A stretch of DNA of 33,384 bases from Deltaproteobacteria bacterium (GTDB lineage Bacteria; Desulfobacterota; Desulfobaccia; Desulfobaccales; 0-14-0-80-60-11): assembly GCA_030018495.1 (NCBI GenBank), contig JASEFS010000025.1:1-33384 (forward strand), given 5' to 3'. Below the pieces are notes generated by a model. The model did not search any database, was not told the origin of the DNA, and saw only the letters and a program-made list of their open reading frames with translations. The position numbers and the translations under genes were made by a program. Shown here piece after piece: positions 208 to 32,653 of the stretch (positions within the stretch are counted from its first letter, which is position 1; every line of letters begins with the position of its first letter).

Positions 208-230
208 GGTGATGGGTTCAGGCGGTCAGG

Positions 231-260
231 AAAACCTCCGGCGACGGCAGGGGAGGTTTT
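231..260 (-). terminator. Rho-independent terminator of the thioredoxin-like gene
   Basis: A 9-bp perfect stem (231-239 AAAACCTCC with 252-260 GGAGGTTTT) surrounds a 12-nt loop. Read on the minus strand, the hairpin starts 11 bases after the stop codon at 272 and its 3' arm ends in TTTT. This placement fits termination of the selenoprotein transcript and implies the gene really extends to 272 rather than ending at the internal TGA. Confidence 0.7.
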
Positions 261-271
261 CCAGTCGACCG

Positions 272-613
272 TTAGGCCGCTTTTGCCAGTTCTTGCAGAT
301 ATTCTTCGGGGGTTTGAAACCCGGTGAACCGGTGTTTTTCCTGGCCGTCAGGGGAAAAAATGAGAGTAGTGGGAGCCCCGCGCACCCCCATTTTTTGCAC
401 CAGCTCCATATGGCCCCGGCCTTCCAGGCGCACCGGGATGTAAGAATTGTTGAGGGTTTGAGCGACTTTCTCGTCGGCATGGGTCTCACGGACCAGCCTG
501 TGACAATGGGGTCACCCTTCCATGTAAAATTCCAGCAGCACAGGGCGGTTGGATTTTTTGGCTTCTTCCAGAGCGGCGGACCAGTTGTCCCGCCAGGCTA
601 TGGATGCAGACAT
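272..613 (-). CDS. Thioredoxin-like selenoprotein with a UxxC active site (in-frame TGA at 512-514)
   Basis: A small cytoplasmic thioredoxin-fold protein, probably a thiol:disulfide or peroxide-handling reductase; its substrate is unknown. The minus frame starts at ATG 613, with AGGAGG at 618-623, and runs 113 residues to TAA at 272. It contains one TGA, at codon 34. Residues before it are typical of the beta strand leading to the active site (VLLEFYMEG). The codon is followed by PHC, so the motif reads U-P-H-C where relatives have CPHC. The cis-Pro loop (GVRGAPTT, residues about 79-86) and the final helix follow in frame, so the fold is complete only if TGA is read through. A hairpin sits just downstream of the TGA. 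Conventional gene callers will miss or split this gene. The alternative is a single-base mutation or sequencing error (TGC to TGA). Confidence 0.82.
486..503 (-). promoter_or_regulatory. Candidate bacterial SECIS hairpin of the thioredoxin-like selenoprotein
   Basis: Eight bases after the TGA (512-514) the mRNA can form UCAC (503-500) with GUGA (489-486), a bulged A at 499, GG (498-497) with CC (491-490), and apical loop CUGGU. The GGU in the loop, the 5'-side bulge and the 15-nt distance from TGA to the loop match known SelB-binding hairpins of bacteria. The stem is short, so this is weaker evidence than the hairpin at 32016-32038. Confidence 0.5.
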
Positions 614-671: not shown

Positions 672-1376
672 TTAATACCTGCTCCGGATAAATGCAAGAA
701 CCGCCCGCAAATCTTTTATTACCGGCACCGGCAAATCCCGGCGCTGGCCCGTCCGGTCGATGATCAGCACGGGCATCCCCAAAGCCTGAGGGCCGGGCAC
801 ATCCGCGTCCGGATCATTTCCCACGTAGAGAGCCTGGGAAGGCGGCAGCCACATGGCCTTGAGGGCATGGGCATAGATCTGCGGGTCCGGTTTGCGGATG
901 AAATAGCGGGAGGAAAGCACAATAGTGTCAAAATATGAGTTCAGCCCCAGCATGCGGATCTCCGGCTCACTGAAAACCCACTGGGCGTCGGAGACAATCC
1001 CCAGGCGGAAATCCCGGCTCAATTCCTGGAGGGCCGGAATGGTATCGCTGAACAAACCGAAGCGGCGGCGGCTCAAAGAGCGGAAAAGCCTGGCCACGAA
1101 CAACACCATGGCCCGCTCCACTTTGCGGTTCAAGGCTTTCTCCAGGATCTCCTCAAACACCTGAAACACGTCGATCTCACCGAAAGGATTGTGGTGCTCC
1201 ATTAGATGAGCCGCGGAAACTTCCTGGTAGCGGGCGGCCAGTTCTTTGGGGCTGAGGAAGATTTCGTAATAGGTCAAAAACTGGCTGAGAACCGCATAAA
1301 GCGCGGGATCGCTTTCGTCCGTCTCAATATCCACCAGGGTGCCGTAGAGGTCAAATATCACCGAACTGATGGTCAT
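672..1376 (-). CDS. HAD-superfamily hydrolase (haloacid dehalogenase-like)
   Basis: A cytoplasmic phosphatase or dehalogenase-type hydrolase of 234 residues; substrate unknown. Motif I is FDLYGTLVD near the N-terminus, with the nucleophile Asp and a Tyr in place of the usual second Asp, as is common in the 2-haloacid-dehalogenase-like branch. Motif II is IVSDAQW, motif III is the Lys of RKPDP, and motif IV is GNDPDAD. A helical cap lies between motifs I and II. I chose ATG 1376 because GGGAG lies 6 bases upstream; a longer frame reaches 1403 without a ribosome site. The selenoprotein gene follows 58 bases downstream on the same strand, so they may share a transcript. It is divergent from the glycosyltransferase gene. 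Confidence 0.85.
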   Translation of the reverse strand: MTISSVIFDLYGTLVDIETDESDPALYAVLSQFLTYYEIFLSPKELAARYQEVSAAHLMEHHNPFGEIDVFQVFEEILEKALNRKVERAMVLFVARLFRSLSRRRFGLFSDTIPALQELSRDFRLGIVSDAQWVFSEPEIRMLGLNSYFDTIVLSSRYFIRKPDPQIYAHALKAMWLPPSQALYVGNDPDADVPGPQALGMPVLIIDRTGQRRDLPVPVIKDLRAVLAFIRSRY

Positions 1377-20703: not shown

Positions 20704-21816
20704 TTAGAAGCCCCGGTCCGACATCCTGGCGTGGAGCATGGCCACGGTGCGGTAGACCAGGTGGGCCAGCTTGGTGTACGGGGCATAGAAAAACAGGAAG
20801 AAAATGGAGGTGAGGTGCAGAAAATAAGTAGGATAGGCCAGGATCTTGACGCCCATGAGGCGAAAGACCCAGGCGCCCAACCCGGTCACACCCACCGCCG
20901 CGATGGCGTAAATCAACTGCCAGTCAAAGTAGGTCCCGTACCCGGCCTTGTCGGCATTGGCCTTGCGGGCCACGATTATCTGGTAGATGCCGTAAAGCAG
21001 GAGGGCCGTGCCTATAATGGCCAAAATCTTGATGGGCGACAACAGGAAATACGGTCCAGGGCTGTGGAAGACCCACTCTTTGACAAAGGCCCAGGCTGTC
21101 ACGGCACCCAGGAAGACGAACCCGAAAAACACCATCAAATGATTGAGGGAGCGGGCAAAGGTGGTCTCGCACAGCTTGAACTTTTCATGCTTGACGATCT
21201 GGGTCAGAGTGGGGACCAGATTGCTCATGACGCTGCCCTTAAGCTTGACCTTCCAAGGCTCGGCATTAATGTCCCGCCAGTAGCGCATCACGCCCTGGGC
21301 CAGCACAAATACGGCAAAGGCCGCCGCGCCGACGAAGATTACATCAATGACATACCAGGGGAACATTTTGGCAAAGACAATGTCACCCTCGGGGATGGCC
21401 AAGCGACCGGTGACCTTCAGGGCCAGGAGGAGCAGCACCACCGGCAGGGCGATGAGCAGCGGCAGGAAGCGGTAGTCTCCCACCATACGGGCCAGAATCG
21501 GGGGGATGGCATAATGTTCGATGCACATCTGCCGGAGCACCCCCATCACTTCTCCCGGCTTGGCGCCCCGGGGACAATAAACCGTGCAATCGCTGCATTG
21601 GTGACACAGCCAGATATCAGGGCTCTTGACGACGTCTTTCAAGCCCCATTGGGCCTTGAGCATCTCCTTCCGGGGAAAGGGGTTTTCCTCCGGGGTGGGA
21701 TTGCACACCACCGAGCAGGTGTCGCATTGATAGCACTTTTTGGCGTCTTGCCCCCCGGCGGCCATGATCCGTTTGACGAATTGGAGGTCCGGTTTGATAA
21801 GAATTTCGTCAGCCAT
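20704..21816 (-). CDS. qmoC: QmoC, membrane subunit of the quinone-interacting oxidoreductase complex
   Basis: A 370-residue subunit that anchors QmoABC to the cytoplasmic membrane and passes electrons between menaquinol and the HdrA-like QmoAB subunits, which serve APS reductase. The N-terminal part is an HdrC-like domain with two [4Fe-4S] motifs: Cys28, Cys31, Cys34, Cys38 and Cys71, Cys74, Cys77, Cys81. The rest is a b-heme membrane domain of the NarI/HdrE type with about six hydrophobic helices and conserved His. AGGAGG precedes ATG 21816, 12 bases after the qmoB stop. Length is normal. Confidence 0.94.
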   Translation of the reverse strand: MADEILIKPDLQFVKRIMAAGGQDAKKCYQCDTCSVVCNPTPEENPFPRKEMLKAQWGLKDVVKSPDIWLCHQCSDCTVYCPRGAKPGEVMGVLRQMCIEHYAIPPILARMVGDYRFLPLLIALPVVLLLLALKVTGRLAIPEGDIVFAKMFPWYVIDVIFVGAAAFAVFVLAQGVMRYWRDINAEPWKVKLKGSVMSNLVPTLTQIVKHEKFKLCETTFARSLNHLMVFFGFVFLGAVTAWAFVKEWVFHSPGPYFLLSPIKILAIIGTALLLYGIYQIIVARKANADKAGYGTYFDWQLIYAIAAVGVTGLGAWVFRLMGVKILAYPTYFLHLTSIFFLFFYAPYTKLAHLVYRTVAMLHARMSDRGF

Positions 21817-21828
21817 GGATCATACCTC

Positions 21829-23997
21829 CTAGAATTCCTTGAAGGGGTTGGGACCGATCTCCCGCACCCGGGCCACATAATCGTTAAGAATCTGCGGCAG
21901 GCGGTCAAACTCGGAGATGGCCAGGGTTACCAGTTGCACCCGGTCGGCTTCCAGACCCAGCTTGTCCAGGGTTTCGGACAGCTTGCTCAGGCGGTATTCC
22001 GCCAGTTCGCTGCCCTTGGCGAAGTGGCACTGATAATCATCGCCTGACTTGCAGGCGAGCAGGATCATGCCGTCAATGCCTCGGGAGAGGGCGTCGGATA
22101 CCCACACCAGGTTGAAGGAGCCCATACAGCGCAGAGGAATGAAGCGGATGAAGGGGTTCAGCCGCAGCTTGTGCCAGGCCGCCGCGTCCAGGGCCGGGTA
22201 GGCGTCGTTTTCGCATACCAGGCCGATGAAGCGGAAGGGGGCTTCCGGATCGTCTTCATCCTCGATTTCCGGCACATCCAACGATTTCAGCATGGAGCCG
22301 ATGATGTCCACGCTGTAGTCCTTAAAGCTGATGATGCGCTCAGGACAGGCGCCCATGCAGGTGGCGCAGCGCCGGCAGCGGTTGATCTTGAAGTAGGGCG
22401 TGCCCTTCTCGTCTTCGTCGATGGCGCCGAAGGGACATTCCTCAGTGCAGCGTTTGCACTGGGTGCAGCGTTGCATGAAGGGGTCCGGGAAGGTTTCGTC
22501 CCAGGCCCGGGGATGCACCGCCATGCCGGCGGCCACATGCTCCACCGCCTGGATGGCCTTCATGGCCGCGCCCCGGGCATCTTCCATGGCCATGGGCATG
22601 GTCATGGGCTGGCGCACCGCGCCCGCGGCGTATATGGCCGTCCGCCGGGTTTCGTAAGGGAAGCAGATGAAGTTGGAGTCCGCGAAGCCGAAGTAATTCT
22701 CCGTCTCCGGCAGACCAGGCCCCTGGCGGTAGGTCAGGTTGAGGATGGGGTCATCCATGGTGGTCGGTACGAGCCCTGTGGCCAGGACCACCATATCGGC
22801 CTCAAAGGCCACGTTTTCGCCCAGCAGAGTGTCTTTGGCCGACACTTTCAGCTTGGCGCCGGGAGCCAGCTCCACCCCGGTCACTTCCGCCTTGGTGAGC
22901 ATGACGCCCGGATCGGATTGGGCTTCCTTGTAGAACAGCTCAGTTTGGCCCGGGGTGCGGATGTCCTTATAAAGGATCATGGCCGCCGCGTCCGGGTTGG
23001 ACTGGCGCACGTACAAGGCCTGCTTCAGGGAAGTGAGACAGCAGAAATCCGAGCAGTAGGGCAGGTGCTCGGGGTCACGGGAGCCGGCGCACTGAATGAA
23101 AGCTACGGTTTCCGGCGGCTTGCCGTCGGAAGGCCGGACGATTTTGCCCTTCTTGGCAAGCTCTTCAAACTCGATGTTGGTGACTACGTCCGGAGACAGG
23201 CCGTATCCCAGGTGGGACAACTTGGTGGCGTCATACGGGCGCCAGCCGGTGGCCAGCACCACCGAGCCGATGCGGACGGTTTCCTCGGTGCCGTTGGTGT
23301 TGATGGTGACGTCCAGCAGGCCCGGCTGGCCTTCGCTCTGCACGATGGTGGAGTTGGTCATCACCCGGATCATAGGGTGCGCCTGCACCTCCGCGATCTT
23401 GGCGTGAACCGGGGAATCCTGCAAAGTCGTATAAGGATAGCTGCTGGGGGTGGACTTGTAGACCTTGGCCCCGTAACCGCCCAGTTCAGCCTCTTTCTCC
23501 ACGAGCAGCACCTGGTAGCCGTTATTGGCGGCTTCCAGAGCGGCGGTCAGACCGGTGATGCCGCCGCCTATGACCATAATGGTCTTGTCACATTCGGTTT
23601 CATACGGCTCGGGCAAGTCGGCTTTTTTGATGCGGGCCGCGCCCATGCGGCAGTAGTCTTCGGCCAAGGCCTGGGTTTCCGGATGACCGGGTTCCTGGGT
23701 CCAGGCCACCAGCTCCCGCAGGTTGACCCGTTCCACCACGACATTGGGAAAATCAAATTCTTCGTATTTGACCCGGTGGGAGCAAGCCGCGATCAGGACG
23801 CAATTAATGCCCTCGCCCTCCGGCTTGATATCCTCCTGGATCATGGCTATGCCCTCGGGGCTGCACATGATGTCATGTTCTTTGATGTGAGGAATCTTGG
23901 CGTCCTTTTTGATTACTTTGGCCAGTTCCTCAAAGTTCAGGGCCTCCCCGATGCCACAGCCTTTGCATAAATATGCGCCTACCTTTCTTTCTTCCAT
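21829..23997 (-). CDS. qmoB: QmoB, HdrA-like flavoprotein with MvhD-type C-terminus
   Basis: A 722-residue soluble flavin/Fe-S subunit. It begins with a Cys pair (CKGCG, Cys11 and Cys14). An FAD Rossmann motif near residue 145 (MVIGGGITGLTAALEA) begins the HdrA-like part. Two ferredoxin-type motifs follow at about 495-545 (CTQCKRCTEECP and CRRCATCMGACP). The C-terminal region (FIGLVCENDAYPALDAAAW, then LACKSGDDYQCHF) is the MvhD/FrhD-like iron-sulfur module known from QmoB. It starts 2 bases after the qmoA stop with AGGAGG inside the preceding coding end, so translation is coupled. Confidence 0.95.
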   Translation of the reverse strand: MEERKVGAYLCKGCGIGEALNFEELAKVIKKDAKIPHIKEHDIMCSPEGIAMIQEDIKPEGEGINCVLIAACSHRVKYEEFDFPNVVVERVNLRELVAWTQEPGHPETQALAEDYCRMGAARIKKADLPEPYETECDKTIMVIGGGITGLTAALEAANNGYQVLLVEKEAELGGYGAKVYKSTPSSYPYTTLQDSPVHAKIAEVQAHPMIRVMTNSTIVQSEGQPGLLDVTINTNGTEETVRIGSVVLATGWRPYDATKLSHLGYGLSPDVVTNIEFEELAKKGKIVRPSDGKPPETVAFIQCAGSRDPEHLPYCSDFCCLTSLKQALYVRQSNPDAAAMILYKDIRTPGQTELFYKEAQSDPGVMLTKAEVTGVELAPGAKLKVSAKDTLLGENVAFEADMVVLATGLVPTTMDDPILNLTYRQGPGLPETENYFGFADSNFICFPYETRRTAIYAAGAVRQPMTMPMAMEDARGAAMKAIQAVEHVAAGMAVHPRAWDETFPDPFMQRCTQCKRCTEECPFGAIDEDEKGTPYFKINRCRRCATCMGACPERIISFKDYSVDIIGSMLKSLDVPEIEDEDDPEAPFRFIGLVCENDAYPALDAAAWHKLRLNPFIRFIPLRCMGSFNLVWVSDALSRGIDGMILLACKSGDDYQCHFAKGSELAEYRLSKLSETLDKLGLEADRVQLVTLAISEFDRLPQILNDYVARVREIGPNPFKEF

Positions 23998-23999
23998 GA

Positions 24000-25259
24000 C
24001 TACCTCCTGCTCAGGCTGATGAGACTTTTAAGGGCGGCCCCGGTGGCGTCCTCGTTGGACTTCATGACATCCAGGGGGCTCTTCATGCTGCCCACCGCGA
24101 CAATCCCTTCGGGTAGGAGTTCAGGAATAATGAAACCCTCAGGGGTGTAGGACAGCGGCATAGGGAACGGCCTGGTTTTCGTGGAAGGCGCCATGCCCAC
24201 CGCCAGCACCACCATGTCAAAGGTCATCTTGGTTTTGCCGCCATTCAGGGTGTGCTCAAAAGTTACCACCACATTGCCGGTGCCGGGCTCCTGCTCCACC
24301 TTGGCCACCTTGCCCCGGATGAGGTGAACGCCTTCATCATCTCTGACCTTCCACATGAATTGCTCATAGCGGCCAGGGGTCCTGAGGTCGATATAAAAGA
24401 CATAGGCCTCGGATTCCGGGTACTGCTCCCTCAGATAAGTAGCCTGTTTGAGCGAGGCCATGCAGCAAATGTAGGAGCAGTGGGGCAGGTGGTTCTCGTC
24501 ACGGGAGCCGGCGCATTGGACAAAGGCCACCTTTTGGGGAGCCTGGTTGTCGGAAGGCCGCAGGATCTTGCCGCCGGTGGGGCCGTTGGCCGCAGCCAGG
24601 CGCTCCATCTGCATGTTGGTGATGACGTTCTTCACTGTGCCGTAGCCCAGATTGTCGGCTTTGGCGATGTCGTAAAGGTCCCAGCCGCCGGCCAGGATGA
24701 TGGAGCCAACCTGGAAGTTCAGGGTCTGAGGTTGCATGTTCAGGTCGACTGCCTCATACTGGCAGGCTTCGGCGCATTTTTGGCCGCAGTCGCCTTTGCA
24801 CACGGAGGCGTCGATGACGTACTTGGCAGGAAATGCCATGTCATAAGGGAGATAAGCCGCCTTGGTCTTGTCCAGCCCGTAATTGAAATCATTAACCCGC
24901 CATTCCGGACAAGCTTGAGCACAGGCGTCACAGCACACGCAACGGTCGTTCACGTATCGGGGCCGAACCACGACGGTGACATCGAAGTTGCCGGCTGTGC
25001 CGCTGACCTGGGTGACATCCGCCATGGTGTAAAAACTGATGTTGGGATTCTCTCGAATCCGGCGGAAGTTGATCTCCAGACCGCACGAAGGCGGGCACAG
25101 TTTAGGGAAATATCGGTGGAGTTGAGCCACCCGGCCACCCAGATACGGTTCTTTTTCCGCAATGATGACCTGGGCCCCGGATTCGGCTGCTTCCAGGGCC
25201 GCCGTGAGGCCGCTCATACCTCCCCCGATAACCAGAATCTTGCGATTATTGGCGTTCAC
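24000..25259 (-). CDS. qmoA: QmoA, HdrA-like flavoprotein
   Basis: A 419-residue HdrA-like subunit that forms the flavin core of Qmo with QmoB. GGGMSGLTAALEAA (residues about 12-25) binds FAD, and PYLGGRVAQLHRYFPKLCPP contains the family's cysteine. Iron-sulfur ligands come from Cys107, Cys109, Cys110, Cys113 and Cys117, and a second set Cys154, Cys158, Cys162 and Cys166. The start codon is GTG at 25259, with AGGAGG at 25266-25271 (6-base spacing). It is the first gene of the qmo operon and follows the aprBA terminator. Confidence 0.95.
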   Translation of the reverse strand: MNANNRKILVIGGGMSGLTAALEAAESGAQVIIAEKEPYLGGRVAQLHRYFPKLCPPSCGLEINFRRIRENPNISFYTMADVTQVSGTAGNFDVTVVVRPRYVNDRCVCCDACAQACPEWRVNDFNYGLDKTKAAYLPYDMAFPAKYVIDASVCKGDCGQKCAEACQYEAVDLNMQPQTLNFQVGSIILAGGWDLYDIAKADNLGYGTVKNVITNMQMERLAAANGPTGGKILRPSDNQAPQKVAFVQCAGSRDENHLPHCSYICCMASLKQATYLREQYPESEAYVFYIDLRTPGRYEQFMWKVRDDEGVHLIRGKVAKVEQEPGTGNVVVTFEHTLNGGKTKMTFDMVVLAVGMAPSTKTRPFPMPLSYTPEGFIIPELLPEGIVAVGSMKSPLDVMKSNEDATGAALKSLISLSRR

Positions 25260-25281
25260 ACCAATCCTCCTTCAGGGGCCA

Positions 25282-25309
25282 GTTTTCGGTTTTCGGTTTT
25301 CGGTTTTCG
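25282..25309. repeat. Perfect four-unit heptamer repeat upstream of qmoA
   Basis: Four exact copies of GTTTTCG lie 23 bases upstream of the qmoA start codon, just before its ribosome site. Read on the minus strand (the qmo mRNA) the units are CGAAAAC. It faces an inverted three-unit array at 25526-25546. Confidence 0.9.
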
Positions 25310-25525
25310 GTAAAATCCAAGGGGACTGCCAAAATTTCCGGTGCGGTTCGCCCAAAAAGAGGCCTTTTTTGAACCAAGGCATTGGAAAAACGATAACGGC
25401 TGCCCTCTAAGGCGGAAATTGCCTGTTGATGGCAACCAGGCAAAAGGAGTGAACAAATTGCTCCTCTCCGAGGGCAGGAGTTGTCGGGGGCACGGCCTCC
25501 CGGATATCACGCTATACCGAGAACA
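25310..25525. other. aprA-qmoA intergenic segment between inverted heptamer arrays
   Basis: This 216-base segment has no supported gene. It holds a strong hairpin at 25419-25443 (TTGCCTG paired with CAGGCAA, plus an inner TTG/CAA), on the strand that would be the qmoA leader. The qmo promoter must lie within or just beyond it. Its flanking inverted heptamer arrays make it look like a small inserted element. Confidence 0.5.
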
Positions 25526-25546
25526 GAAAACCGAAAACCGAAAACC
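25526..25546. repeat. Three-unit heptamer repeat near the aprA terminator
   Basis: Three copies of GAAAACC, the inverse complement of the units at 25282-25309. It lies next to the T tract of the aprA terminator and may belong to a dispersed intergenic element. Confidence 0.9.
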
Positions 25547-25550
25547 GTCT

Positions 25551-25588
25551 TAAAAAAGTGGCCGTGGGCAGGCTTCAAGACCACGGCC
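25551..25588 (-). terminator. Rho-independent terminator of the sat-aprBA operon
   Basis: GGCCGTGG (25560-25567) pairs with CCACGGCC (25581-25588), and the hairpin is followed on the minus strand by ACTTTTTTA. Before it, nearer to aprA, a 12-bp perfect stem (25598-25609 with 25613-25624, loop GAA) lacks a T tract and probably protects the 3' end. This tandem arrangement suggests aprBA and qmoABC are separate or only partly continuous transcripts. Confidence 0.85.
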
Positions 25589-25639
25589 GGCAAAGGTCCC
25601 GGGGCTTCCGAAGGAAGCCCCGGGGTTGGATCTCAAGGT

Positions 25640-27598
25640 TTAGTCGACCAACTGCTTATAAGGCACGGTCTCGAATTTCCACTCGTTGGTGGCTTTGTTG
25701 TACTGCGAAATGGTGAAGACCTTCCACTTGCTGTCATCGATGTTGAGGAAGTCGGCCCGGTAGTAGTAGCCCGGGTAACGGGTCTCTTCCCGGAACAGGA
25801 TGTGACGCAGGTGGGCTTCACCGGCCAGGATGCGATGATACTGCTCCCAGGCCCGCATCAGCTCGTGCAGGTCGGAAGCGGCCAGGCGCTGGGCGTCTTC
25901 CTTAAGCAGGGTGAGGCGCTTCAGACCTTCTTCCAGGCTCGGCTTGTTGGTCATGTACATGGTGGCGCAACCCGCGACATACTCGTCCATGAGCTTCTGC
26001 AAGCGGCTCTGGACCTGCTTGGGCAGCAGGTAGTTGGGGTTGATCTCCGGAGCGGAGGTGTAGTTCTTGTACTTTTCGTAGATCTCGAAGGGGAGGTAAA
26101 TCTCGCCCAAAAGATCGTCGATGTTCTGCGCGGCCTCAAGCTTGTCATCCTTGTGGTCCAGGATGAAAGCGATGGCGGCTTTGGCGGCCATGCGGCCCTC
26201 AGCATGGGAGCCGGAGGAGAATTTGTGGCCGGAGGCGCCGACGCCGTCACCCGCGGTGAACAAACCTTCCACCGTGGTCATGCGGTCATAGCCCCAGAAC
26301 CAGTCATCGGGGGCGCCCAGGTAATTCTTGGAGGGACCGCTGACCCACAGACCGGCGCAGCCGGCATGGGAGCCGAGCAGGTAGGGTTCGGACGGAATTA
26401 TCTCGGAAGGCACCTTGTCTGGTTCCATGTTCATGGAAGCCCACAGGGACGCGGCGGAGATGGACATATCCAGGAAGTCTTCCCAGGCTTCCGCTTCCAG
26501 ATGCTTAAGTTCTTTTTTGGAGAGCACTTTGGCCAGTTCCTGCATGGCCTTGTCGGTGTGCATCAGGATGGGGCCGCGGCCTTCCCGCATCTCGATCATC
26601 GCGGCATGGTTCCTGAGGCAGGTGCCGGGGGAGTCGGCGTAGCCGGGATATTCCTGCTTCACCCGCTCCCAGTTCCGCTCCATGTAGTCTTCGCCGTAGG
26701 CGTTGGTGGCTTTGGCCTTGAAGAACAGGAACCAGGCGCCGACCGGGCCGTAGCCGTCCTTAAACCGGGCCGGGACGAAACGGTTTTCCATGAGAACCAT
26801 CTTGGCGCCGATTTCCGCAGGCATGGCGTAGGTGGAGCCGGCGTTCCAGACAGGGTACCAAGCGCGGCCCTGGCCTTCAGCCACGGACCGGGGCCGGAAC
26901 ACGTTCACCACGCCGCCGCAGGCGATGATCATGGCTTTGCACTTGAAGACGTAAGCCTTGTGCTCGCGCACGCTGAAACCAACCGCGCCGCAAACCCGGT
27001 TGGGGTTATTCTTGTCGGTCAACAGCTTGACGACAAAGACGCGCTCGTAGATGTTATCCATTCCCAGGGCGTTCTTGGCGGCTTCCGCCACGATCACCTT
27101 GTAGGATTCGCCGTTGATCATGATCTGCCAACGGCCGGAACGGCACGGTTTGCCCCCGTCTTTGAGCATGGGCAGACCTTCGTCTCTGGCCGTCTGACCA
27201 TCGACAGTGTGATTCTCCGCGTCTTTTTGCCAGATGGGCAGGCCCCATTCCTGGAAGTCAAACACGGACTGGTCGACGTGGCAGCCCAGGGAGTGAATCA
27301 GGTCTTCCCGGACGATGCCCATGAGGTCGGTGCGCACGTACTTGACGTAATCAGCAACCTCGTTTTCCGGGCCCACGTATGTATTGATGGCCGACAGACC
27401 CATGGCCACAGCGCCGGAACGGTCCATGGCCGCTTTGTCCACCAAAGTGACCTTGAGACCCGCAGCTTTGGCCCAGGCCGCAGCCTCGACAGCCGCACCG
27501 CAGCAAGCCATCCCGCCGCCGACGAGGAGAAGATCGGTTTCAACCGTTTCTACGGGCGGTTTTTCGCAAAAAGACCATCTGCAGACTTCTTTTTCCAT
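25640..27598 (-). CDS. aprA: Adenylylsulfate reductase, alpha subunit
   Basis: A 652-residue cytoplasmic flavoprotein that reduces APS to sulfite and AMP with electrons from AprB. The FAD motif is TDLLLVGGGMACCGAAVEAA (residues about 21-40), followed by the DKAAMDRSGAVAMGLSAIN segment typical of the fumarate-reductase fold. The central NHAAMIEMREGRGPI and SSGSHAEGRMAAKAAI elements are normal for AprA. Length is that of the family. Start ATG 27598 has AGGAGG 9 bases upstream, and aprB ends 36 bases before it. Together with aprB, sat and qmo it indicates dissimilatory sulfate reduction; reverse operation in sulfur oxidisers is the alternative. Confidence 0.97.
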   Translation of the reverse strand: MEKEVCRWSFCEKPPVETVETDLLLVGGGMACCGAAVEAAAWAKAAGLKVTLVDKAAMDRSGAVAMGLSAINTYVGPENEVADYVKYVRTDLMGIVREDLIHSLGCHVDQSVFDFQEWGLPIWQKDAENHTVDGQTARDEGLPMLKDGGKPCRSGRWQIMINGESYKVIVAEAAKNALGMDNIYERVFVVKLLTDKNNPNRVCGAVGFSVREHKAYVFKCKAMIIACGGVVNVFRPRSVAEGQGRAWYPVWNAGSTYAMPAEIGAKMVLMENRFVPARFKDGYGPVGAWFLFFKAKATNAYGEDYMERNWERVKQEYPGYADSPGTCLRNHAAMIEMREGRGPILMHTDKAMQELAKVLSKKELKHLEAEAWEDFLDMSISAASLWASMNMEPDKVPSEIIPSEPYLLGSHAGCAGLWVSGPSKNYLGAPDDWFWGYDRMTTVEGLFTAGDGVGASGHKFSSGSHAEGRMAAKAAIAFILDHKDDKLEAAQNIDDLLGEIYLPFEIYEKYKNYTSAPEINPNYLLPKQVQSRLQKLMDEYVAGCATMYMTNKPSLEEGLKRLTLLKEDAQRLAASDLHELMRAWEQYHRILAGEAHLRHILFREETRYPGYYYRADFLNIDDSKWKVFTISQYNKATNEWKFETVPYKQLVD

Positions 27599-27634
27599 TA
27601 TAACTATCCTCCTTAGGATTTTGGCTGGTTCGGC

Positions 27635-28060
27635 TTACTTTTCACGGGCCGGGCCGGTGAAGAAACCGGGTTTCTTCAGACCTGACAGGTCAGAGGGCAT
27701 GGTTTTGCCTTTAAACACGTCGATGGAACCTTCCGCCGTGGTCCGGATGGGGAACTTGAACCGTTTGACGGTCTTCTGGTCCCGGAACTTGATGGTCCAC
27801 ATGATGTTGTCGGTGCCGCGCAGCGGGAAGGTGCTGGATCCCAGGGGCATAATGTCCGCGTAATGCCGGACTTCAATGGCCTGCTGGGGGCAAATCTTGA
27901 CGCAGTTAAAGCATTCCCAGCACTGCTCGGGCTCCTGGTTGTAAGCCTTCATCTTCTCATGATCCAGAATCATCAGATCATTGGGGCAGATGTACTGGCA
28001 GGCAGTACGGTCCAGGGCCTTACAACCGTCGCATTTTTCCACAATTACAAAACTAGGCAT
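27635..28060 (-). CDS. aprB: Adenylylsulfate reductase, beta subunit (ferredoxin-like)
   Basis: A 141-residue electron-transfer subunit with two [4Fe-4S] clusters. Ligands are Cys10, Cys13, Cys21 and Cys25 in CDGCKALDRTACQYICP, and Cys47, Cys50, Cys53 and Cys57 in CWECFNCVKICP. The C-terminal tail (SGLKKPGFFTGPAREK) is the part that wraps around AprA in known structures. AGGAGG lies 9 bases before ATG 28060. The 151-base gap to the upstream small gene is larger than others in the operon and could hold a promoter. Confidence 0.96.
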   Translation of the reverse strand: MPSFVIVEKCDGCKALDRTACQYICPNDLMILDHEKMKAYNQEPEQCWECFNCVKICPQQAIEVRHYADIMPLGSSTFPLRGTDNIMWTIKFRDQKTVKRFKFPIRTTAEGSIDVFKGKTMPSDLSGLKKPGFFTGPAREK

Positions 28061-28211
28061 TTTGCAAAACCTCCTGATTTTGGTTAACTAAATGGGTTTT
28101 TGCCTTTATTGTCCGATCGGGGGAACCCTTGCTCGACTTCCTCCCGGTTAGCAATTTAGTCCCGCTTTGCGGCGGAACTTACTGCCTGTGCGCTGCTGTT
28201 CCCCCCCAACA

Positions 28212-28517
28212 TCAACCCTTCTCAACGCTGGCGATGAACTCGTCCATCACGTTCAAGCTCTTGCGGGCCACGACCAAATCATAAATCTTGTCCTTCACGG
28301 CCTTAGGCAAAAGCTCGATGCTTTTGGTGGTGGCTGCATCGTATTTGGCCATGGGGAACAGTTGCAAGATTTTGTCCCGCTGCTGTTCGTTGCATGGCAC
28401 AATCAATACCTTCATGCCGGCCAGCTCCTCTTTCAGTAAATTCCCGAGGCCGGCTTCCTGGAGGGCTTTAAAGCGTTCTTCATTAATCCATATGTTGATG
28501 GGATAAGTTTCAGCCAT
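28212..28517 (-). CDS. Small conserved protein between sat and aprB
   Basis: A 101-residue protein of unknown function. It begins MAETYPINIWINEERFKALQ and reads as an alpha/beta protein with one central Cys (VLIVPCNEQQRDKILQLFP) and a helical C-terminus (PKAVKDKIYDLVVARKSL). Start ATG 28517 follows AGGAGG; the frame is open back to 28619, which overlaps sat. In Archaeoglobus fulgidus a small ORF is also reported between sat and aprBA, so its position is probably meaningful. Role inferred: accessory to APS formation or transfer. Confidence 0.75.
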   Translation of the reverse strand: MAETYPINIWINEERFKALQEAGLGNLLKEELAGMKVLIVPCNEQQRDKILQLFPMAKYDAATTKSIELLPKAVKDKIYDLVVARKSLNVMDEFIASVEKG

Positions 28518-28560
28518 TTCCTTGCCTCCTAATGCAGATTGGGTGACCGCGACCTGGCGC

Positions 28561-29838
28561 TTACAGCGGTTCGATGGTGAAGGCCGGTTTGGCCTTGGCC
28601 AGATAATCCTGGGTGACAAACGGCGAACCGAAACCGTACTTCTTGGCGGCGTCCATGACTACATCAAAGACCTCGGGCCGGAAGATCAGACGAGTCGGTT
28701 TCACTTCATCCATGATGATAGAGCGGATCTTGGTGCCGCTGAACTTCTGTAGCTCGTTCCAGTGGCCGCACAGGCCGATGCAGGTTACCTCACCGCAGTG
28801 GGGGCAATAAGCCCATTCCAGCACATAAATGGGGGTGATGTTGAGCTTTTCCTTGGGGATGCTCATCAGCAGATGGTGGGCCTGGTAGGAATGGTAGTAG
28901 GTGCCCACGCCGGCGTGATCCCGGCCGAACATGTGGTGGGTCAGGCCCAGGTTGGTACGGATGATGGAATGGTGCACCGCCTCCCGGGGTCCGGCATAGC
29001 GCATATCCCAGAAGGTCATGGTGACCATGTGGATGTCATCCCGAAAATAGCCGGATTTGCGCAGTTCGTCCTGGGTGAGTACGATGGCTTCGTCGATGTA
29101 GTCGCCGACCCGCTTCTCACCCACGATGCAGTTGACCAAAATGCCGGAGATGGCCTTGCCCATGGTTTCCATCTGCTCCACCGGGCTGTCGCCATGGGCG
29201 GCGATATAGGCATGCTTCATGAGCCACTCATGGCCGGAGTGGGGCACGTTCCGGGTCTGGTGGGCGACGATCTTGATCCAGTTCTTCTCTTTAAATTTCT
29301 CCCGGTGCTGTCTCGGGGTGAGGAAGTAAGGAGTAAAGGGCTCCCGGACCTTGGGTTCATTCACCAGGGTGATTTTGCCGCCCAAGAACTTGTCTTTGTA
29401 AGCATAAGTCCGCTTGACACCGGGGTGCTTATCCTCCTTGGTGCCGTAAACGTCCTGGGCTATGGTTTCTTTGTCGAAGGAGTAAATCTCTTCGATGTCA
29501 AAGATGGCCAGAGGATTGCCTTCGTAGGTCAGACAGACCGAGTCGCCGGCCTTGATGCCGTAATCGGCGATCTCCTTGTCGGAGATATCGAACACGATGG
29601 GGATGCTCCACACCGTGCCGTCCGCCAGTTCCATCTTTTTGCAGGTGGCCTCCACATCGGCCTTTTTCATAAAGCCTTCAATGGGGGAAAAAAATCCGTA
29701 CGCGATGCCGATGGCCTCGGTGGCCATCTGACGATTGGCCGGAACCTGTTTCAGGCCTTGAATCTTTTTCTTGGCTTCCGCCTTGTCGGTTATAACCCTT
29801 TCTACCAGTGGCTTTCCACCATGACCGGTATACTCCAT
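28561..29838 (-). CDS. sat: Sulfate adenylyltransferase (dissimilatory ATP sulfurylase)
   Basis: A 425-residue homo-oligomeric enzyme that converts sulfate and ATP to APS and pyrophosphate. The nucleotide-binding QTRNVPHSGHE (residues 194-204) and GRDHAGVG (305-312) motifs are intact. A zinc site is formed by CPHCGEVTCIGLCGH (Cys345, Cys348, Cys353 and a following residue). No APS-kinase domain follows. The start ATG 29838 has GGAAGGGG upstream. It heads the operon sat, small ORF, aprB, aprA and is driven by the promoter at 30022-30050. Confidence 0.97.
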   Translation of the reverse strand: MEYTGHGGKPLVERVITDKAEAKKKIQGLKQVPANRQMATEAIGIAYGFFSPIEGFMKKADVEATCKKMELADGTVWSIPIVFDISDKEIADYGIKAGDSVCLTYEGNPLAIFDIEEIYSFDKETIAQDVYGTKEDKHPGVKRTYAYKDKFLGGKITLVNEPKVREPFTPYFLTPRQHREKFKEKNWIKIVAHQTRNVPHSGHEWLMKHAYIAAHGDSPVEQMETMGKAISGILVNCIVGEKRVGDYIDEAIVLTQDELRKSGYFRDDIHMVTMTFWDMRYAGPREAVHHSIIRTNLGLTHHMFGRDHAGVGTYYHSYQAHHLLMSIPKEKLNITPIYVLEWAYCPHCGEVTCIGLCGHWNELQKFSGTKIRSIIMDEVKPTRLIFRPEVFDVVMDAAKKYGFGSPFVTQDYLAKAKPAFTIEPL

Positions 29839-31555: not shown

Positions 31556-31604
31556 TTATTTTATGGGACATGGAGGCACTTTTCTGTCCGTGAAAGGAAA
31601 AACT

Positions 31605-32129
31605 GTGTCCGGAAAATCTCGTGAGGGCTGGAGCCCATATCTGGCCGGAGCCCTGACCGGCTTGGTCATGGTGTTCTCGGTGTGGCTGAGCGGCAAGTTC
31701 TTCGGGGCCTCCACCAGTTTTGTCCGCACCGCCGGCTTGCTGGAGTCCCTGGTGGCTCCAGAGCGGGTGGAGCGCCTGCCGTATTTCCTGGAAAACCCGC
31801 CCAAGCTGGATTGGCAGTGGATGTTCGTGCTGGGCATATTGCTGGGCTCTTACGCGGCGGCCAAGCTCTTCGGCGATTTCCGTTGGGAGGCGGTGCCGCC
31901 CATGTGGCAGGAGAGGTTCGGTTCCGATCAGGTGACCCGCGGCTTAACGGCTTTTGCAGGTGGAGCGGTGGCCATATTCGGAGCCCGACTGGCCGACGGC
32001 TGACCCAGCGGCCATGGCTTGAGCGGTCTGCTCCAGCTATCCGTCAGCGGCTTTATCGCTTTGGCCTGTTTTTTTGTCGGGGGGGTGGTGGCGGCGCGCC
32101 TTCTTTACGGCGGAGGCAGGCAGCCATGA
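31605..32129 (+). CDS. YeeE/YedE family sulfur transporter subunit, predicted selenoprotein (TGA at 32001-32003)
   Basis: A 174-residue membrane protein of the YeeE/YedE (TsuA/PmpA-like) family, whose relatives import thiosulfate or related sulfur species through a conserved Cys relay. The frame contains one TGA, at codon 133, in GARLADG-U-PSGHG, exactly where the family has its conserved Cys (GGC-x-SGHG). After it the sequence continues as a normal family end (LLQLSVSGFIALACFFVGGV) to TGA 32127-32129, overlapping the next gene's ATG (ATGA). A SECIS-like hairpin lies at 32016-32038. GTG 31605 is chosen because AAGGA lies 6 bases before it; ATG 31563 is an alternative with no ribosome site. 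A pseudogene caused by a point mutation is the competing explanation. Confidence 0.85.
32016..32038 (+). promoter_or_regulatory. SECIS element of the YeeE/YedE selenoprotein
   Basis: GGCTTGAGC (32016-32024) pairs with GCTCCAGCT (32030-32038), with one mismatch and one wobble, around the apical loop GGUCU. The loop sequence is the same GGUCU as in the E. coli fdhF SECIS, and it begins 21 bases after the TGA, close to the 18 bases in fdhF. It lies within coding sequence, as bacterial SECIS elements do. Confidence 0.75.
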
Positions 32130-32653
32130 AAATTCTGATCTACGGCTTTGCCACCGGCATCCTGTTCGGCTTTCTCCTCCAGCGCGGCCAGGTGCTGCGC
32201 TATGAAAAACAATTGGGCGCCCTGCGCCTCCTGGACATGACCATCGTTAAATTCATGCTGTCCAGCATCCTGGTGGCCATGGTAGGAATTTACCTCCTTT
32301 TTGATTTGGGCCTGGTCAAGCTCTCGGTGAAACCCACGATTTTGGGAGGAAACATTCTCGGCGGCCTTGTCTTCGGCGTGGGCTGGGGGCTTTTCGGCTT
32401 TTGCCCGGGCACCGCGGTAGGCGCGGCGGGCGAGGGCCGCTGGGGCGTGCTGTGGGGTATTGCCGGCATGATCGTCGGCGCCGCGGTTTTCGCCGAGACC
32501 TACCCCTTCCTGAAATCAACGGTCCTGACCTGGGGGAACCTGGGTAAACTCACCCTGCCGCAAGTGCTGGGGCTGAACCACTGGATCGTTATTCCGGTTA
32601 TGATTGCGGCGATTTTGAGCCTGTTTTATTGGTTTGAAAAATCCGGTTTATAA
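32126..32653 (+). CDS. DUF6691 / YeeE-YedE partner subunit
   Basis: A 175-residue membrane protein that forms the second half of the two-gene YeeE/YedE transporter (PmpB-like). About four to five hydrophobic helices are visible, with FATGILFGFLLQRGQVL at the start and GVGWGLFGFCPGTAVGAAGE in the middle, where the conserved Cys of CPGT is intact. The start ATG overlaps the selenoprotein's stop as ATGA, so its translation probably depends on ribosomes that read through the upstream TGA. The longer open frame back to 31682 is out-of-frame upstream sequence. Confidence 0.87.
   Translation: MKILIYGFATGILFGFLLQRGQVLRYEKQLGALRLLDMTIVKFMLSSILVAMVGIYLLFDLGLVKLSVKPTILGGNILGGLVFGVGWGLFGFCPGTAVGAAGEGRWGVLWGIAGMIVGAAVFAETYPFLKSTVLTWGNLGKLTLPQVLGLNHWIVIPVMIAAILSLFYWFEKSGL

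Follow-up and report, generated by a model that had tools for sequence, protein, structure and literature searches.

Selenoproteins that combine a thioredoxin fold with a UxxC motif have been tabulated in bacteria, including a PF13098 'thiol:disulfide interchange protein' family known from Deltaproteobacteria (PMC9312934; PMC13188914, table 1), as have YeeE/YedE selenoproteins with a GUxSG motif (PMC9312934; PMC13188914, table 1). Here we analyse a window that covers 33.4 kb at the start of a 52-kb contig from a genome of the order Desulfobaccales (3.46 Mb, 99.97% complete, 63 contigs), probably a metagenome assembly. The window encodes a 113-residue protein with the same Pfam domain and the same UxxC motif as the PF13098 family; its likeness to the representative of that family, WP_011366075.1, is one of domain and motif only. 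We read this protein, with a probability of roughly 0.94, as a small cytosolic thioredoxin-fold thiol-disulfide reductase, nearest to the C-terminal domain of DsbD, in which the attacking residue is selenocysteine (Sec; U34-P-H-C37). Judged by its sequence, it appears to be a further UxxC selenoprotein of an already known type.

Among described proteins, the C-terminal (gamma) domain of DsbD (1uc7, 2fwf) is the best match by fold and among the best by profile, with its CxxC at the same place and a cis-Pro. Unlike DsbD, the window protein stands alone, without transmembrane or N-terminal domains; it has Sec for the first Cys, and the lack of an evident signal peptide suggests a cytosolic location. 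The selenoprotein TsoB, which resembles a rhodanese/DsbD fusion, is represented by a model (NF045694) whose C-terminal ~115 residues match 25 of 25 members of the family described here. However, TsoB is a multidomain protein of 572 model positions with a cut-off of 805 bits, and the window protein reaches 51 bits over one domain. A thioredoxin/TPR paralogue of ~195 residues with a U[IL]GC motif, found phylum-wide and in the source genome at G000:C48:76746-77066, shares the core, the Sec position and a hairpin near the same offset (six pairs, loop at +23, in 19/19 sequences). It differs from the UPHC protein in its C-terminal TPR-like region and in having Sec in almost all members, and the two are 28–36% identical. 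The paralogue reads as 191 codons with FYNPQ-U-IGC, and TGA is present in most members of the phylum sample.

The gene and its in-frame TGA

The predicted selenoprotein gene lies at 272–613 on the minus strand, with ATG at 611–613, a coding frame of 113 codons (275–613) and a TAA stop at 272–274. Its translation, read from the sequence, is MSASIAWRDNWSAALEEAKKSNRPVLLEFYMEG-U-PHCHRLVRETH...GVRGAPTTLIF...AKAA, with a single internal TGA at 512–514 (minus strand). This TGA, codon 34, occupies the position of the N-terminal active-site Cys, and the UPHC motif that it opens is followed later in the frame by an intact cis-Pro loop (GAPTT). A Shine–Dalgarno sequence, AGGAGG, is read a few nucleotides 5′ of the ATG at 618–623 (±1 nt, minus strand), and the orthologues have AGGAG-type motifs at the equivalent place before the start. 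An earlier, sequence-only reading of this DNA had described the minus-strand frame of 113 codons, its AGGAGG start, the one TGA at the first active-site Cys and the cis-Pro loop, and all were found again on re-reading. Directly upstream lies a gene for an HAD-family hydrolase (672–1376, minus strand; Pfam HAD_2, 66.6 bits). Past the stop codon, an 11-bp perfect inverted repeat (GGAAAACCTCC...GGAGGTTTTCC) is read at 229–262 (minus strand); it may be a transcription terminator, although it lacks a clean T tract. The repeat is absent from the consensus scan output, and an Rfam search of the window returned no matches.

Fold and family

Two Pfam domains match the protein, Thioredoxin_2 (PF13098, 53.5 bits) and Thioredoxin_7 (PF13899, 52.1 bits), against gathering cut-offs of 27. 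AlphaFold2, run on the family alignment, yields a confidently modelled thioredoxin fold (pLDDT 94.1, pTM 0.86) with a helix at residues 35–44 directly after the UxxC motif; the best PDB match of the model is DsbD-gamma, 1uc7 (TM 0.84), and a profile search agrees. Four columns are invariant in the family: U/C34, H36, C37 and P81. No curated NCBIfam model recognises the subfamily above its cut-off. The equivalog thioredoxin model TIGR01068 gives 33.7 bits, below its cut-off of 96.8, and besides TsoB the selenoprotein models Trx7/PDZ (28.8 bits, cut-off 300), VPGUxxT (22.5, cut-off 275) and PDO_seleno_TRX (18.8, cut-off 185) also score low. The U[IL]GC paralogue, too, has no NCBIfam model above cut-off. 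Across 395 genomes of the phylum, a profile search placed orthologue-level members in the order alone: scores are at least 177 bits within it and at most 87 bits outside. The 113-residue UPHC proteins thus appear to form a subfamily specific to Desulfobaccales.

TGA and cysteine codons among orthologues

The orthologue survey covered 29 genomes of the order Desulfobaccales, 27 of which have a close orthologue (52–74% identity), giving 29 orthologues in total. Their alignment is colinear, and TGA is the sole internal stop, always where the alignment has the first active-site Cys. Seven orthologues have TGA there (G000, the source genome, and G001, G003, G009, G013, G019 and G027) and 22 have TGC or TGT. 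The sequence-only reading had named an absence of Cys at this position in homologues as evidence against it, an objection that the 22 Cys-bearing orthologues remove. The TGA-bearing assemblies belong to seven separate species in two families of the order. Downstream of the TGA, dN is 0.15 and dS 1.11 between the source and its congener; among the Sec copies dN is 0.15–0.33 and dS 1.1–2.4 or saturated, and dN/dS is well below 1. A codon that reads TGA in seven species and TGC or TGT in every other orthologue, together with the low dN/dS, places the frame with its TGA far beyond chance.

These data bear on two alternatives. A sequencing or assembly error might be suspected, the true codon being TGC and the product an ordinary Cys thioredoxin-like protein, since the source genome is in 63 contigs, is probably a metagenome assembly, and most orthologues have TGC or TGT. 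The sequence-only reading had already considered random error less likely, and the survey goes further: six other independently assembled species have TGA at the same codon, and every one of the seven TGA copies, spread over two families, is accompanied by GTC at codon 41 and by the hairpin described below, so that error is in practice excluded. The second alternative is that the TGA is a real stop truncating a decaying, redundant gene. A Cys copy does stand beside the TGA copy in G019 and G027, each of which has one Sec and one Cys copy, and the copy of G001 is N-terminally truncated. However, purifying selection persists past the TGA; only the catalytic Cys is ever affected, and only by TGA, never by TAA or TAG; and G000 lacks a second copy of the gene, with Shine–Dalgarno sequence, frame and cis-Pro intact. 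Such decay is very improbable.

The truncated copy of the congener, G001 (281–349 of its extracted locus), lies near a contig start and lacks the first ~18–25 codons. The HAD gene in this genome stops ~20 nt before the stretch homologous to the thioredoxin-like gene, and the N-terminal loss may be a real deletion or an assembly join. A wider contig scan turned up the congener alone.

A hairpin downstream of the TGA

The proposed apical SECIS hairpin spans 482–494 on the minus strand, with GGUC at 494–491, the loop CGUGA at 490–486 and GACC at 485–482. It begins 17 nt past the TGA, its loop lies at +21, and its shape is that of a four-pair stem with a five-base loop in which G is second. With the T of the TGA numbered 1, the seven Sec copies all have GGTC at 21–24, CGTGA or CGGGA at 25–29 and GACC or GACT at 30–33; the stem pairs are kept across these copies, with one G-U change. 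By contrast, none of the 22 Cys copies is able to form the hairpin (Fisher 6e-7, relatedness ignored); the Sec copies are few and related, and the contrast of 7/7 with 0/22 stands for perhaps 3–4 independent changes, one of them on well-supported branches. Of the remaining codons in these genes, 0.7% have a like hairpin at the same offset. GGUC-CGUGA-GACC falls within the stem, loop and spacing limits published for bSECIS elements (PMC13188914). The generic bSECIS rule on its own accepts several Cys controls too, so the contrast between Sec and Cys copies alone was used as evidence. On this comparison, the hairpin is likely to be the SECIS of the thioredoxin-like gene.

The hairpin also bears on the protein. 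At codon 41, 7/7 Sec copies have GTC (Val), and the Cys copies encode Asp, Ala or His, never Val; pairing with GAC would require GTC, and the hairpin would thereby explain why Val41 is found in every Sec copy. Within the thioredoxin-like gene there is no double-sided covariation in the conserved stem, which is just 4 bp long. Minimum-free-energy folding of the post-UGA sequence against shuffles gave unremarkable z-scores and no discrimination, and two of the six folded Sec sequences have alternative structures of lower computed energy. As for the hairpin that the sequence-only reading had placed 8 nt downstream, a SECIS-like hairpin is present past the TGA, but at 482–494; the UCAC...GUGA candidate ~8 nt past the TGA was rejected as the SECIS, with only 64% of its cells paired across the Sec copies.

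Selenocysteine machinery

The source genome encodes SelA (604 bits), SelB (373 bits) and SelD (387 bits) and one copy of tRNA-Sec (73 bits) with the anticodon UCA (TCA in ARAGORN). SelB scores above the cut-off in 28 of the 29 genomes of the order, including all seven with a TGA copy, and in the remaining genome, G018, it is present as separate pieces. The SelD gene of the source genome (G000:C55:29319-30230) has one in-frame TGA itself, and by eye this TGA is followed by a strong hairpin, CCUCCAGG GGU CCUGGAGG.

That UGA is instead read as Trp or Cys, through genome-wide recoding or a suppressor tRNA and without a SECIS, would fit the post-UGA folding energies, which taken alone are unexceptional. 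However, TGA terminates several intact genes of the window and is an ordinary stop there, the tRNA-Sec (UCA) is canonical, and the hairpin occurs in exactly those copies that have the TGA; such decoding is scarcely credible. The UPHC thioredoxin-like selenoprotein proposed by the sequence-only reading is therefore supported by the Cys homologues, by the UGA at a conserved Cys column, by SelA, SelB, SelD and tRNA-Sec in the same genome, and by a SECIS-like hairpin confined to the Sec copies.

A second TGA gene in the window

The sequence-only reading had also noted a second gene in the window with TGA at a Cys position, and this gene was identified as a half-size YeeE/YedE gene (31563–32129, plus strand; Pfam Sulf_transp, 92.6 bits) with its TGA at 32001–32003 in the context ADG-U-PSGHG. 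It has the GUPSG form of the GUxSG motif within Sulf_transp, but in the window the family is split into two half-size genes. This YeeE/YedE pair (31563–32653, plus strand) has Sec in its first half (GUPSG) and Cys in its second (GFCPGT). At the TGA column, five orthologues have TGA and three Cys. The hairpin GAGC-GGUCU-GCUC (32021–32033, plus strand) has counterparts in 5/5 Sec versus 0/3 Cys copies; the Sec hairpins are GAGC-GGTYN-GCTY or the compensated CAGC-GGGAC-GCTG at +21, with one compensatory pair change. Together with the U[IL]GC paralogue, YeeE makes two further TGA genes of the order with a hairpin geometry like that of the thioredoxin-like gene. For YeeE, G027 has a Sec copy that branches within a group of Cys copies from the same genus (support 98/96). 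In all eight genomes that have both genes, the Sec state of the 113-residue thioredoxin and that of YeeE are concordant (five Sec, three Cys); G027, with Sec in both genes, also holds a Cys thioredoxin copy.

The window further contains a sat-aprBA-qmoABC block for dissimilatory sulfate reduction (20704–29838, minus strand), assigned by eye, and these genes indicate that the organism is a sulfate reducer. The selenoprotein could be real and have another role, for example as an electron donor to a peroxiredoxin or in selenium or persulfide handling within sulfate-reduction metabolism. In favour of such a role, sat-aprBA-qmoABC lies on the same contig, ~20 kb away, as does the half-protein of a Sec-bearing YeeE-type sulfur/selenium transporter, the Sec state of which agrees in the eight genomes. 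However, the conserved neighbours are the HAD hydrolase and a D-Ala-D-Ala carboxypeptidase-like gene rather than sulfur genes, and linkage on one contig is loose. We consider a special role of this kind unlikely, though worth keeping in mind.

Locus and evolution of the Sec and Cys states

The gene immediately upstream of the orthologue encodes an HAD hydrolase in the Sec genomes G000 and G001 and in ten Cys-bearing genomes (G004, G007, G011, G012, G015, G018, G019, G021, G025 and G028). Downstream, G001 and G009 (Sec) and several Cys genomes have a D-Ala-D-Ala carboxypeptidase-like gene, its identity judged from sequence. The shared neighbours indicate that several Sec and Cys versions share one locus. 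Resolution in the protein tree is poor; the Sec and Cys labels require 3–4 changes on it, and grouping all Sec copies in one clade is rejected only narrowly (AU p 0.04). Tentatively, and at somewhat less than even odds, Desulfobaccales may offer a natural Sec/Cys exchange series, in which the same locus (HAD/dacA-like) has switched on more than one occasion, with the SECIS hairpin following the codon and the state coordinated with that of YeeE.

Proposed mechanism and significance

Under the thiol-disulfide reductase reading, SelA and SelD would produce Sec-tRNA(UCA), and SelB would bind the mRNA hairpin, its loop 21 nt past the UGA of codon 34, so that Sec is delivered there and termination avoided. 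The selenolate of Sec34 would attack a substrate disulfide and Cys37 would resolve the mixed selenosulfide; the U34/C37 pair would carry this redox chemistry and would presumably be regenerated by thioredoxin reductase or a comparable enzyme. Because most sister species use the same protein with Cys, Sec would speed up the existing role rather than confer a new one.

Since no curated model recognises this subfamily, automatic annotation will tend to call a 33-residue fragment or to start the gene past the TGA, and selenoproteins in these sulfate reducers are consequently undercounted. The family holds closely related Sec and Cys versions, sometimes within one genome, and one of its residues, Val41, seems to be imposed by a hairpin within the coding sequence. 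The family is thus a handy system for studying the benefit of Sec to a thioredoxin and the origin of SECIS elements.
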